A stretch of 64,000 bases of DNA, taken from NCBI RefSeq assembly GCF_014773225.1, contig NZ_JACXAJ010000008.1, positions 62,001 to 126,000 of the forward strand. Reading direction: 5' to 3'. Positions within the stretch are counted from its first letter, which is position 1, and every line of letters begins with the position of its first letter. The DNA comes from Pontibacter aquaedesilientis. Its GTDB lineage: Bacteria > Bacteroidota > Bacteroidia > Cytophagales > Hymenobacteraceae. Position numbers and translations under genes: made by a program. Positions 43,719-51,384 of the stretch are shown here, piece after piece. A model generated the notes under the pieces. The model did not search any database, had not been told where the DNA came from, and saw only the letters and a list, made by a program, of their open reading frames with translations.

Positions 43719-44525
43719 ATGAAAGCGCTGAAATACCTGTCACATCGTCTCTACACAACCTGGTGCGTTACCTGGTTTGTAATGCCGTTTGTGGTTACCT
43801 ACCCGTTCCAGGCGGTGCTCATCCGGAGGCAACGCTGGTACCGGCACGTGCATGGCATCAACCGCTTTTGGTCCTCCTCGGCCTTGCGCATGTTTTTAGC
43901 GCCGATCATAGTAGAGTGGCGCATGCGATTCAGCCATAAGGAGCAGTATATCTTCACGCCCAACCATAGTTCTTACCTCGACATTCCGCTTTTGCTGCAT
44001 ACCATCCCGGGTTTTATTAACTTTGTCGGGAAGAGCTCCTTAGCCAAAGTGCCGCTTTGGGGCAAGGTATACGAGAAACTTTACATCTCCGTAGACCGCA
44101 AAAGTGCCATTAGCAGTGCCAAGAGCTATATCCAGTCGATGAGGTCGCTGGAGCAGGGGCGTAACCTGGTTATTTTCCCGGAAGGAACCATTCCGCCTAC
44201 GGCAGGGGAAGAACTTTTGCCTTTTAAGGATGGTCCTTTCAGGCTGGCCATTGAGAAGCAGTTGCCAGTGGTGCCGGTAACGATGCCCTTTAACCATAGG
44301 TTTCTGCCCGTTCTGGACGGCAAGCTGAGGGTACGCTGGCATCCGCTCAAGATCGTGCTCCACGAGCCGATTGAAACCAAGGGCATGACGCTACAGGACG
44401 TGCCCGCCCTGAAAGAGAGAGTGCATCATATTATTCAAACTGAAATTACGAAACATAACAAGATAGATGTCAACCGATATTCAAACCATCAGAAAGATCG
44501 CGCACCTGGCCAGGCTGGAGTTTAA
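43719..44525 (+). CDS. plsC: 1-acyl-sn-glycerol-3-phosphate acyltransferase
   Basis: 268-residue membrane-bound PlsC-type acyltransferase in phosphatidic acid synthesis. Catalytic NHSSYLD (N-H-x4-D, about 85-91), the acceptor-binding FPEGT (about 154-158) and a later VPVTM are present. One N-terminal hydrophobic segment (about 12-34). Its last 59 bases overlap gatC in a different frame, so the C-terminal residues (IDVNRYSNHQKDRAPGQAGV) are an add-on created by the overlap and are not expected to be conserved. Starts directly at its promoter, hinting at a leaderless message. Confidence 0.9.
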   Translation: MKALKYLSHRLYTTWCVTWFVMPFVVTYPFQAVLIRRQRWYRHVHGINRFWSSSALRMFLAPIIVEWRMRFSHKEQYIFTPNHSSYLDIPLLLHTIPGFINFVGKSSLAKVPLWGKVYEKLYISVDRKSAISSAKSYIQSMRSLEQGRNLVIFPEGTIPPTAGEELLPFKDGPFRLAIEKQLPVVPVTMPFNHRFLPVLDGKLRVRWHPLKIVLHEPIETKGMTLQDVPALKERVHHIIQTEITKHNKIDVNRYSNHQKDRAPGQAGV

Positions 44526-44754
44526 CGAGGAGAAAGAGCAGGAAGTGCTGCAGGACCTGAATAAGATCCTGAACTGGGTAGACCAGTTACGTGAACTCGA
44601 TACAGAAAACGTAGAGCCGCTGATTCACATGTCGGAAGAAGTGAATGTGATGCGCGAAGACATCGTGTTTAACAGCGTGTCGCACGAAGACGCCCTGAAA
44701 AATGCTCCTAAGAAAGACTCCGATTATTTCAGAGTGCCGAAAGTACTGGAATAG
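44467..44754 (+). CDS. gatC: Asp-tRNA(Asn)/Glu-tRNA(Gln) amidotransferase subunit C
   Basis: 95-residue subunit of the GatCAB transamidase. N-terminal IRKIAHLARLEF and the ILNWVDQLRELDTENVEPLIHM middle are the family hallmarks; C-terminal DYFRVPKVLE is the normal end. gatA and gatB are not in the window. The start lies inside plsC (59-base overlap), suggesting translational coupling; the next gene follows 15 bases later. Confidence 0.95.
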   Translation: MSTDIQTIRKIAHLARLEFNEEKEQEVLQDLNKILNWVDQLRELDTENVEPLIHMSEEVNVMREDIVFNSVSHEDALKNAPKKDSDYFRVPKVLE

Positions 44755-44769: not shown

Positions 44770-47700
44770 ATGAACAAAATTAAGTTTTGGAACAGATGGG
44801 ATGCGGACACCAGGTATCCCTATCTTTTTTTACTGATACTGGCTGTACTGGCACTGCTGCTGGGGGTATACCACTATTTTACTGGTGATAGCACGGCATT
44901 TGCCTGGGACAAGTTGCCTGAGCTGCAGGTCGTGCAGGTGCCCGTGCATGAGTTCAGCCGCCTGCTCGAACCTTTCACACTATACGTCGACGGCTACCTG
45001 CTAACCGAGCAGTACGATGTGGCCATGCCAAGGGTCAATACCTTTGCGGCCATCGGGGTGCTGGTGGTGCTTGCCATTGCGCTGGCCTTTTATGCCGCCG
45101 CCATCAGTACCATGCAGCGTATTCCTTACTTTGCGGGCATGCTGCTGCTTATGCTCTTGCTGGCATCCTTTAACCTCGATCTGCTGGGCGTGATCGGCAA
45201 CAGCACAGGACAGACCACTCTGCTGCTCTTTATCGTGTTTTTTGCCGTGGCCAGCTATGCATTCCAGGCTTTCTACCAGCAGGTTTCCTTCACGCTGCGT
45301 GTGCTGGCCATGTTGGGTCTGGTAGGGGTGCTGGGCGCCTTGGTTTACATGGAGTCCGACTTTCCGCCGCTGCTCACCACACTGCACCTGGTCAACTACA
45401 GCTCATTGGGGTTGATCGTGGCATCTTTCCTCTTTATGATCTGGGTGGGCTATGCGAACATCAACGCATTGCTTTGGATCAATACACAGGGCGGCAAGCC
45501 CGAGCGCCGTTTCAGCATGTGGCAATTTGTGCTGGTAAGTATGTTATACCTGCTCAACCTGCTGTTGCTATACCTGCGCCACGTGGGCTATGTAAAGGGC
45601 GAAGATTTGTTTTATGTGAACGCCTACGTGATCCTGCTGCTCTCGGTGGTGGCCGGGTTCTGGGGGATGGGGCAACGCGAAGCTTACTATGGCAGGCTGT
45701 TCCCTTTCAAACCGACCGGGGCGGTGCTATACCTGGTGTTTGCCATCATCACCTTTCTGAGCATAGGCTACGCCTTCGCCACCTCCAACGACTCACTCAC
45801 CGTGCTGTTTCATGACCTGATCGTGTACACGCACCTGGCTTTTGGGGTGTTTTTCTTCATCTATGTGATGGCCAACTTCGGCCGTCTGATCGAACAGCGG
45901 CTACAGGTATACAAGATTGTGTACCAACCGAAACGGCTTCCTGTTTATACCATTTTCACGATGGGAGCCATTCTGATGGCCATTCTGGTGATGCGCACCC
46001 AGTACCGGGTCTATTTCTATGCCTACGCAGGCTACTACAGCTACCTCGGCGATCTGTACCGAACCTCCGACAACAGCATTTTGGCCGAGCGCTTCTATCA
46101 GGAGAGTGACCTGTACGATGTCAACAACGTGAAGGCCAATTTCAGCCTGTCTAGTATGTACCGCGAGCAGGGACAGCGGAACAACGAGATACTAAGCCTG
46201 CAGGAGTCACTGCAAAAGCGCCCAAACCCGAAGCTGTACGTGCGCCTGGCAAACCTCTACGATCTGAAACAGTACTTCTTCGAAAAGCTGTATGTGCTCC
46301 AGCAGGGGGCAGCTGCCTTCCCGGAAAGCGGTGAGATATACAATAACCTGGCCCTGTTGTACGCCAAAACCAGTGTGTCTGACAGTGTGGAGTACTATTT
46401 TGACCTGGCACAGAAACACACCTCTGAGCCGGATGTGGTGCGAAGCAACAGGCTGGCGTTTTATACCCGCCAGGCCATGCCGGATGAGGCCAAGGAACTG
46501 GTGTCTGAGATACGTTCTGCCAAATACAAGCCGCTTCGCAGCAATATGGCCGCGCTCGACCTATTGCTGGGTCGAACGCATGATGTGAAAGCAGACATTT
46601 TTGAGCCCGATTCGCTGGAGCAAGTGGCCGATATGACACTGTTCTACAACAACACGATCGGCAGCGTGAACAAAGGCGATACCTCACTTTTGAAGCCGAT
46701 CAACCGTTACCTGTCCTCCCGCGAGAACCAGCTGTTTATGGAGGACCTGCTATACCTGAAGGGGCTCGTGCACCACTATGACGGACGGCCAAAAGAAGCC
46801 AGAAGCGTGGTGGAGAACCTGGCCCTTTCAGCAACAGGCCGCAGTGGCTACTATTACAATGCACTGGGCCACTGGATGATGGAGGAGGAGAACTACGGAG
46901 CAGCCGCTTCCTACTTCAAAGAGGCCAAAGACCGAGGGTTCAACCAGGCTTTCATTTCCCACGCCTATGCGCTGGCCCTCAACCACCAGACCGAGGCTGC
47001 CACGGAAGCCCTGCGTGAAGTGGGTTTCACAGAATTGGAGTCTGCGATTGCTGTGGCTACCTCCCTGCGCGAAGTGCTGGACCAGTCGCCTGTCACCATC
47101 ATGGCGGAGGCCCCGGACCGTGACAAGGTGCAGTACCTCATTGCCTACCTGCCGGACCTGCTGCCACAGGATGTGGAGGGCATCGTGAGCAGCGTGAAGG
47201 ACAAAGACCTGCGCCGCGAGGCCATGGTGGCCCGGGTGGACTATTACATAGAGAAGAAACGCTGGAAACTGGCGAGCGATGCCATAAAAGAGGCCGCTGC
47301 AGAACTGCGTCCGGAAGGAGAGCTCCGCTCGAAGTTGAACCTGCAGCAGATGAAGCTCTGGCTCTACACCAAGAACTACGACATACTGGTGAAACGCATA
47401 GACAACCTATACCTGACACCGAAGGACAAACGGCAGAAGCTATACCTGCGGGCCAAGATCGCCGAGGTGAAAGGCCGTGACCGCGAAGCCGCCGAACGCT
47501 ACGAGCAGGCCCTGAGTATGCTACTGTACGATGAGCACGTTGTGGAAGACGCAGCCGCTTTCTTCGCCAGGTATAAGCCAGCAGAAATGAAAGCCTACAG
47601 CATCCTGCTGGATGGTATCACCTATAACCCTTACTCGGCGAGGCTGTACAAAGCCTATGCGCTGGAGAGTGTCAACAAAGGCTTGGGGAGCTATGCCGAT

Positions 47701-47817
47701 CAGGCACTTGTTTCGCTGCGCAGCTTGCTTTCTGCCCCGGAATATACTACATTTAAAGAGAAATTTGATAGACAGCGCCGAGCGAAAGAGGCTGAGGCCG
47801 ACGAATGGCAACTATAA
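44770..47817 (+). CDS. Large polytopic membrane protein with TPR-like C-terminal half
   Basis: 1015 residues from the ATG at 44770 (a GTG six bases earlier is possible). N-terminal half (about 15-415): about 11-12 membrane helices, starting at [18 protein letters not shown], with a large loop at about 45-90. C-terminal half (about 430-1000): helical repeats of the TPR kind ([92 protein letters not shown]), probably extracytoplasmic or cytoplasmic depending on helix number. No enzyme motif seen. It is the third gene of plsC-gatC-this-ABC ATPase-adenosyltransferase, with an ABC ATPase 10 bases downstream. I do not recognise a function; a scaffold role is a guess. Confidence 0.75.
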
Positions 47818-47827
47818 CCCAGGTCAT

Positions 47828-48550
47828 ATGAGCACCATCATTGAGACAAACGATATTTCCAAGGTATACCGGATGGGGAGCGAAACCATCCACGCACTCA
47901 AGTCTGTGTCTATCCGGATAGAGCGGGGCGAATACGTGGCGTTTATGGGGCCTTCCGGATCCGGAAAGTCTACGCTCATGAACATCATCGGCTGTCTCGA
48001 TACCCCTTCGGGCGGGCAGTACGTTCTCAATGGCAACGATGTGAGCAATATGACTGACAACGAGCTGGCAGAGGTGCGCAACAAGGAGATCGGCTTCGTA
48101 TTCCAGACATTTAACCTGTTGCCGCGCCAGAGCTCACTCGAGAATGTGGCCTTGCCTTTGATCTACGCCGGGTATAACAAATCTGCACGCGAAGAGAAAG
48201 CACAGCAGGCGCTGGAAAGTGTGGGACTGGGCAACCGGGGCAAGCACAAACCGAACGAACTATCCGGTGGTCAGCGGCAGCGTGTGGCCATTGCCCGTGC
48301 CCTTATCAATAACCCGAGTATCATTCTGGCCGACGAACCCACGGGTAACCTCGATACCAAGACCTCTTACGAAATTATGGAGCTGTTCGAGAACCTGCAC
48401 GCCAAAGGCAACACCATTATCATGGTGACGCACGAGGAGGACATTGCCAAGTATGCCCATCGCATCGTTCGACTTCGGGACGGGCTCATAGAATCGGACG
48501 AGGTGAACCACGAAATTGCCTCGCATGCGAATGAAAACGCAGCGCATTAA
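47828..48550 (+). CDS. ABC transporter ATPase, MacB/LolD type
   Basis: 240 residues from the ATG at 47828; a longer frame upstream lies inside the preceding gene and is rejected. All nucleotide-binding motifs are intact: Walker [10 protein letters not shown] (about 40-48), Q-loop [13 protein letters not shown], the signature [15 protein letters not shown], Walker [12 protein letters not shown] and the His switch IMVTHEED. The family (LolD/MacB/FtsE type) couples to permeases with large periplasmic domains. No permease with the FtsX/MacB fold is adjacent, so the partner may lie elsewhere; the 1015-residue neighbour upstream does not look like it. Confidence 0.93.
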
Positions 48551-50306: not shown

Positions 50307-51384
50307 ATGACTGCTGAGCAAGTAAAGGATTTAAAAGCCCGTGTAGAGGCTTTGAGGAGGTATCTTTGACTACGATACCAAGAAAGAACAGATAGAAGAA
50401 ACCGAGAAGCAGACGCTGGCCTCCAACTTTTGGGACGACCCGAAAGAAGCTGAGAAGGTGCTCAAGGAAGTGAAGTCCATCAAGGTATGGACAGACCATT
50501 ACGAAGAGGTGGAGAAAGTGCTCTCAGACCTGGAAGTACTTTTTGATTTCTACAAAGAAGGAGACGTTTCGGAGGAGGATATTAAAGAGGAGGCCAAAAA
50601 AACGGAGGAGGCCATTGAGGGACTCGAGTTCAAGCGTATGCTAAGCGGCGAGGAAGACCAGCTCAGCGCCATTTTGGAGATAAATCCGGGCGCGGGCGGC
50701 ACCGAGAGCCAGGACTGGGCCGAAATGCTCATGCGTATGTACATCATGTGGGCCGAGTCGCACAGGTTCGGGGTGAAGCAGGTAAACTACAACCCGGGCG
50801 AGGGGGCAGGTATAAAATCGGCCACGCTGGAAATAACCGGCGACTTTGCCTATGGCTACCTGAAGTCTGAGATCGGTGTGCATCGGCTGGTGCGTATCTC
50901 TCCGTTTGACTCCGGTGGCCGGCGCCATACCTCTTTCGCTTCTGTGTTTGCCTACCCTGTGGTGGACGACACCATCAACATCGAGGTAAACCCGGCCGAC
51001 ATTGAGTGGGACACTTTTCGTTCAGGTGGTGCAGGTGGTCAGAACGTGAACAAAGTCGAGACGGCCGTACGCCTGAAGCACAAACCGACAGGCATCGTGA
51101 TCGAGTGCCAGATCGAGCGCTCGCAGCTCATGAACAAAGAGCACGCCATCCGTATGCTTCGGTCGCGCCTGTACCAGATAGAAGTTGACAAGCGCAATGA
51201 GGAGCGTGACCGGGTGGAGAGCACCAAAAAGCGCATTGACTTCGGTTCCCAGATTCGCAATTATGTGCTGCACCCATACAAGCTGGTAAAGGATATCCGG
51301 ACCGGTGTGGAACGCTCTGACGTGCAAAAAGTGCTGGACGGCGACCTGGACGAATACATCAAGGCGTTTCTGATGCAGGCCTAG
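50307..51384 (+). CDS. prfB: Peptide chain release factor 2 with programmed +1 frameshift
   Basis: Recognises UGA and UAA stop codons and releases the protein. The first 20 codons (ATG at 50307) end in an in-frame TGA at 50367-50369. A +1 slip at CTT-T lets reading go on from GAC (50368) for 338 more codons, giving about 358 residues, the normal length. The tripeptide anticodon SPF is in RISPFDSGG (about 213-221) and the GGQ motif in [11 protein letters not shown]. The stimulator is the AGGAGG just before the slip site, typical of RF2 genes and here one of the few Shine-Dalgarno-like sequences in the window. This autoregulates RF2 level: when RF2 is low, the ribosome pauses at UGA and shifts frame. 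Single gene, ended by a strong terminator. Confidence 0.96.
50355..50370 (+). promoter_or_regulatory. prfB: prfB programmed frameshift site
   Basis: AGGAGG-TAT-CTT-TGA-C: internal Shine-Dalgarno, spacer of three bases, slippery CTT, the stop TGA, then C. Matches the classical RF2 autoregulatory signal. Confidence 0.95.

Follow-up and report, generated by a model that had tools for sequence, protein, structure and literature searches.

What kind of protein is encoded between gatC and an ABC ATPase in the DNA analysed here, where a block of membrane helices is joined to a long TPR arm in a single chain, and does its position say anything about its function? The window (the whole stretch of 64,000 nucleotides that was analysed) had been given a preliminary description, which placed a membrane/TPR protein of 1015 residues at 44770-47817 with gatC and the ATPase lying no more than 15 bases away on either side. 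Both statements were borne out, the open frame lying exactly where it had been placed. The gene and its neighbours are as follows:

44467..44754, + strand: gatC, upstream neighbour (PF02686, TIGR00135; synteny)
44770..47817, + strand: predicted polytopic inner-membrane / periplasmic TPR protein, 1015 aa plus stop (open frame, presence in 108/118 order genomes, dN/dS)
47828..48550, + strand: LolD/MacB-type ABC ATPase, downstream neighbour, 240 aa (PF00005; TIGR02211 below cut-off; synteny)

A conserved gene under purifying selection

Read in frame 1 of the forward strand, 44770-47817 gives 1015 residues with a single terminal stop, the frame translated from the opposite strand over the same interval being interrupted by stops. 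The ATG at 44770 agrees with the starts of relatives in a 20-sequence alignment. The end of gatC at 44754 lies 15 bases before the gene, with the ABC ATPase beginning 10 bases after it. The genome itself holds a single match to the protein and the closest named relatives are from Pontibacter species, with 78-83% identity. Across 11 Pontibacter orthologues (22 comparisons) dN/dS was 0.065-0.129 over both halves, values that are approximate given a dS of 0.8-1.7, confirming 44770-47817 as a genuine conserved gene under purifying selection.

Distribution of the family

A strong match (E≤1e-63) was found in 108 of 118 genomes of the order Cytophagales, some of these over less than the full length, the remainder comprising one fragment at a contig edge (G041, E 2.1e-30), two weak matches (G031 and G136) and seven genomes with none. 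Seven of the nine genomes with no match or a weak one belong to family f21 (0.7-1.2 Mb) and the other two to family f8 (1.6 Mb); G036, also of 1.6 Mb, retains the gene. The earlier proposal of a probable need for the protein in normal growth fits its retention in the order and the purifying selection, but is tempered by the missing or weak matches in two small-genome families.

At class level a Cytophagales-only profile detected the family in 6 genomes outside the order, while a widened profile recovered 13 order members along with diverged homologues in 16 of the 283 other genomes, the open frames measuring 973-1124 aa; six of the outside-order sequences went into building the widened profile and match it by construction. 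Across the phylum a membrane profile made from the order alone found 12 order members and two marginal matches among 284. Weak matches in the phylum search (G176, G323) and in the class searches (G550, G466) were regarded as chance, and the matches to the full-length profile outside the order look, among the matches listed, like TPR cross-matches. No relative was found on viral contigs. Among the papers listed by the literature searches no title or abstract opening pointed to the family, which does not in itself prove its absence in print. It is a real and conserved family of Cytophagales and some other Bacteroidota, and seemingly an undescribed one.

The membrane half

44770..46002, + strand: membrane half, residues 1-411, with 11 predicted TM helices, N-in (hydropathy, K/R counts, conservation)

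From the hydropathy peaks of the window protein and of a 20-sequence family profile 11 TM helices were counted, their borders being drawn manually. The last of them stops close to residue 411, and neither profile shows a peak of comparable size past residue 430. This is close to the 'about a dozen' helices first described. The first outer loop spans approximately residues 37-91 and is some 55 residues long. Summed K+R amounted to 8-20 in the predicted inner loops against 2-7 in the outer ones, inner exceeding outer in 20/20 aligned sequences, and because of this bias together with the odd number of helices the TPR half is predicted to be periplasmic.

Conservation in the membrane half is much like that in the TPR half, with a mean top-residue frequency of 0.41 versus 0.37 in a set of 53 sequences whose redundancy was limited by keeping 4 of 19 further genus members for which loci were available. 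N369 is the sole invariant residue of this half across 23 diverse sequences, and Y365, Y260, R177, N340 and F253 are also more than 90% conserved in the order alignment. No acidic position is fixed in the membrane half, the best being residue 229 (D+E 0.87 in 47 order sequences). In the window protein residue 229 (window 45454-45456) is Ala, this position being acidic in 87% of the 47 order sequences.

Sequence and profile searches of Pfam, NCBIfam and the PDB gave no convincing match of the membrane half to a transporter, enzyme or other family, in agreement with the earlier description of the protein as one of unknown function. Matches to NnrU (E 0.0012, one of 20 members), QoxD (E 0.004, one of 21 members) and MalF in the PDB (E 0.11, residues 255-344) were regarded as chance. 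Structure prediction, which had been proposed as a check, was usable for residues ~800-1010 and partly for 470-530, but failed to give a confident membrane half: the full-length AF2 model from 12 Pontibacter sequences had a mean pLDDT of 47.5, with the membrane half below 50, and a membrane-half model from 12 Pontibacter sequences had a mean of 37.0 and was unusable for a fold search.

It has to be asked whether this half is itself active. A transporter, lipid flippase or sensor, in which the membrane half would move or sense a small molecule and the TPR half would serve for docking, is in our view unlikely. Such a role would be in keeping with the 11 helices, with the conserved Tyr, Trp and Asn residues in or beside TM7-TM10 (Y260, W298, Y365 and N369) and with the mostly acidic site 229, but neither transporter profiles nor structure-sequence searches gave a convincing match, that to MalF being regarded as chance, and the commonest acidic site is the one replaced by Ala in the window protein.

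A diverged GT-C-type glycosyltransferase resembling TMTC1-4, with a catalytic membrane half and a TPR arm recruiting protein substrates, appears less probable again. The plan is TMTC-like, being N-in with a first outer loop of ~55 residues and the TPR repeats on the outer side. As described in PMC11292533, TMTC proteins have a GT-C half followed by luminal TPRs that may recruit substrates. The TMTC1-4 and TMEM260 O-mannosyltransferases (GT105, GT117; PF11028) share a multi-helix half with the window protein, with the TMTC TPRs being non-cytoplasmic according to the same paper (PMC11292533), and related genomes encode TMEM260-like proteins of similar length (~1000 aa). However, homology between these and the window family was undetectable by profile comparison, in which the TMEM260-like profile (24 sequences, first 700 residues, mostly own genus) reached a probability of 0.4-4.3% compared with 97-99.8% for distant members of the family itself. 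In addition, the TMEM260-like control has three acidic positions at 1.00 in its first 40 residues (E28, D35 and E38 in 24/24 sequences), whereas the first outer loop of the window family has no fixed acidic residue, its best position reaching 0.62 D+E in 47 sequences, and no Pfam enzyme family, the TMEM260-like one included, was matched. The O-antigen ligase/polymerase domain Wzy_C likewise gave no Pfam match and 0.5-1.1% in profile comparison. At the level of sequence, the profile comparison with its controls speaks against detectable shared ancestry of the membrane half with TMEM260-like proteins or Wzy_C.

The genome has one separate TMEM260-like (PF11028) protein of ~1000 aa (G000:C16:167397-167927, locus L261), and at least one such protein is present in 29/29 related genomes, including G031, which has no good match to the window family. 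The argument that TPR-bearing TMEM260-like proteins make this architecture common was dropped, three such proteins having been scanned with no Pfam TPR at E≤0.01.

The TPR half and its asparagine ladder

46027..47814, + strand: predicted periplasmic TPR half, residues ~420-1015 (TPR families in relatives; AF2 model of ~800-1010)
46138..46650, + strand: asparagine ladder N457, N526, N560, N592 and N627 (conservation, repeat-length periodicity)

In the window protein every Pfam TPR family stays below its cut-off and the NCBIfam TPR-type models PrsT, MamA and PilW are not matched, the assignment coming from relatives and from the model. TPR_14 matches 10 of 20 aligned family members (E≤0.01), all six members from outside the order score above the cut-off for one or more TPR families, and among the relatives PrsT is matched in 15/21 (best E 3.2e-23), MamA in 16/21 and PilW in 9/21. 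In the AF2 model residues ~800-1010 have pLDDT values mostly of 67-87 and match TPR chains, with residues 886-991 aligning to a designed TPR at Z 15.1 and rmsd 2.5. The first-listed fold match, to the TPR domain of OGT, has an rmsd of 14.2 and a Z tied with many TPR chains. The C-terminal half is tandem TPR, as had been described, though it extends over roughly 595 residues (~420-1015) rather than the ~550 first given.

Bacterial TPR proteins of the PrsT, MamA, PilW, LapB and BcsC types are membrane-linked or periplasmic, as the window family is predicted to be. These types are not known to have more than a few membrane helices, and among the matches obtained none of them extended over the 11-helix half of the window protein.

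Within the TPR half 11 positions carry one residue in at least 90% of 47 order sequences, four of these being Asn (526, 560, 592 and 627; P 0.004 versus background) at spacings of 34, 32 and 35. Weaker Asn sites at 424 (0.74) and 457 (0.70) prolong the ladder, with site 424 being Ser in the window protein and the ladder having no Asn near residue 492. The Asn profile scored 9.88 at a lag of 32-36 against 6.76 (sd 0.67) when shuffled, a value reached in 0/2000 shuffles. A second signal appeared at lag 66-70, corresponding to two repeats (P 0.0005), while seven other lags gave no signal. When all 20 residues were compared at lag 32-36 only two gave a strong signal, Pro at z 4.8 and Asn at z 4.5; Ile, Tyr, Ala and Leu were weak, at about z 2, and among the polar residues Asn was followed by Ser at z 1.2. 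Of the six ladder sites, at most one lacks Asn in 40/47 order sequences and at least three have it in 47/47, counted in the same alignment from which the sites were picked. In the six outside-order members Asn stands at 3 to 6 of the sites, some relatives lacking single ones. Asn recurrence at the TPR period on successive repeats, with one gap, is accordingly present in the sequence pattern.

The ladder is the sole mechanistic clue found for the window protein, and an indirect one. From the local motif N525/N526 can be read as TPR positions 5/6. In PMC9715652, Asn at positions 5/6 or 6 is described as important for substrate binding in SPINDLY and OGT. Both resemble the window family in having TPR repeats with Asn at repeat spacing, which in their case form a ladder that holds peptide, but they are nucleocytoplasmic glycosyltransferases, whereas the window TPR half is predicted to be periplasmic and is joined to a membrane half; Pfam scans of the window protein and 20 aligned family members left the GT41 domain unmatched.

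A candidate periplasmic holder for extended polypeptides

The explanation that we favour, to which we give about an even chance, is that the window protein is anchored in the membrane and serves as a periplasmic TPR holder or scaffold for extended polypeptides. Computation supplied its starting points: a real and conserved gene, a predicted topology, TPR in the C-terminal half and Asn at periodic spacing. The 11-helix inner-membrane half would anchor a long periplasmic TPR superhelix, on which the row of Asn on successive repeats, lining the inner groove and binding peptide, would most likely grip the backbone of a client polypeptide in extended stretches. The protein would then serve, bound to the membrane, as docking platform or chaperone to proteins crossing the periplasm, with envelope or secreted proteins as the presumed clients and the membrane half as anchor or assembly platform rather than as enzyme or transporter. 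Since the membrane half is conserved about as well as the TPR half and contains the invariant N369, it may do more than anchor. Against binding by the ladder, conserved Asn in repeats can also have a structural role, and against an inward-facing ladder, the AF2 model of residues 420-790, where 470-530 is partly usable, is mostly of low confidence.

A bolder version, which we regard as doubtful, would make the protein a so far unrecognised class of polypeptide holder, anchored in the inner membrane and near-universal in Cytophagales. In it a new membrane domain would be fused to an Asn-ladder TPR arm capturing unfolded cargo bound for the outer membrane, whether envelope proteins, lipoproteins or type IX substrates. 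The novelty lies in a membrane half without a known family being joined to an Asn-ladder TPR arm, no new mechanism having been demonstrated. The protein is kept in 108 of the 118 genomes of the order, yet ~40% of its length falls outside the scanned family libraries. The family thus marks a gap in the envelope biology of Bacteroidota, making the window protein a good study target, and it may be usable as an order-level marker. Were the ladder reading true, it would give a direct handle on periplasmic polypeptide handling in Bacteroidota.

Neighbouring genes and the ABC ATPase

The linkage of the gene to its neighbours is complete in its own genus, with gatC and the LolD-like gene both present at 20/20 loci (window included), and partial beyond it. 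Among 42 order loci outside the genus, which are the best-scoring of several searches and not a random draw, gatC lies upstream in 24 (8 of 15 families), a LolD-like gene downstream in 17 (nine families) and both in 14. Outside the order gatC lies no more than 100 bases upstream, or overlaps, in 6/16 homologues, with G517, G603 and G565 having flanks of less than 820 bases. In family f15 a cobalamin adenosyltransferase directly follows the gene in 6/6 loci. Other neighbours where synteny is broken include, in the order, an ABC ATPase with ABC-F-type domains at one f4 locus (which we take to be an ABC-F protein), an E1 dehydrogenase, a beta-lactamase-family protein and further TPR proteins; in loci outside the order they include a formyltransferase, AICARFT/IMPCHase or polyphosphate kinase. 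No constant partner gene was found in the loci scanned, the identified neighbours being mostly housekeeping, and for this reason the gatC linkage, although old, probably has little functional meaning.

The downstream ATPase is the third best of five ATPases of the genome that score 230-267 bits against the LolD model, none of the five exceeding the LolD cut-off of 307.75. Ten FtsX-domain matches in the genome lie in nine genes; related ATPases flank three of the ten FtsX loci (within 1.5 kb), and once a tandem copy and a second domain are also taken into account five of the nine genes have none. As had been pointed out, no partner permease lies beside the ABC ATPase in the window; with five FtsX genes lacking a flanking related ATPase, an ATPase without an adjoining permease is unremarkable here and looks ordinary for the genome.

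The weakest alternative, that the protein is a dedicated partner of the LolD-like ATPase (a permease or periplasmic adaptor in ABC export, for example in lipoprotein release), is improbable, slightly more so than the glycosyltransferase: the ATPase directly follows the gene throughout the genus and in 17 of the other order loci, but it was not seen in 25/42 (at least G122 and G134, with 0 and 108 bases downstream, being too short to show it), including 6/6 of f15, in 5/30 gatC loci of a class sample gatC or plsC has a LolD-like gene behind it and no gene for the TPR protein, and Pfam scans of the protein and 20 aligned family members gave no FtsX or MacB_PCD domain, separate FtsX permeases being present in the genome. 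Adjacency in only 17/42 order loci outside the genus suggests that the ATPase is probably no obligate partner, and a functional tie to it was not supported.

In the five class-sample loci (L124, L136, L143, L145 and L151, of 30 gatC loci) a LolD-like ATPase comes after gatC without the TPR protein, or after plsC in the case of L151, which has no gatC call. In two of the five a cobalamin adenosyltransferase comes next after the ATPase. Gene order of this kind suggests an older gene cluster into which the window gene may have been inserted, or from which it may have been lost. In the window a plsC-like acyltransferase frame (43719-44525, + strand) overlaps gatC (44467-44754) by 59 bases, the length of the overlap varying among Pontibacter relatives. 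Elsewhere in the window prfB (50307-51384, + strand) contains the classic programmed +1 frameshift site, AGGTATCTTTGAC, with an in-frame TGA at 50367-50369, and the listed ORF therefore lacks the N-terminus.
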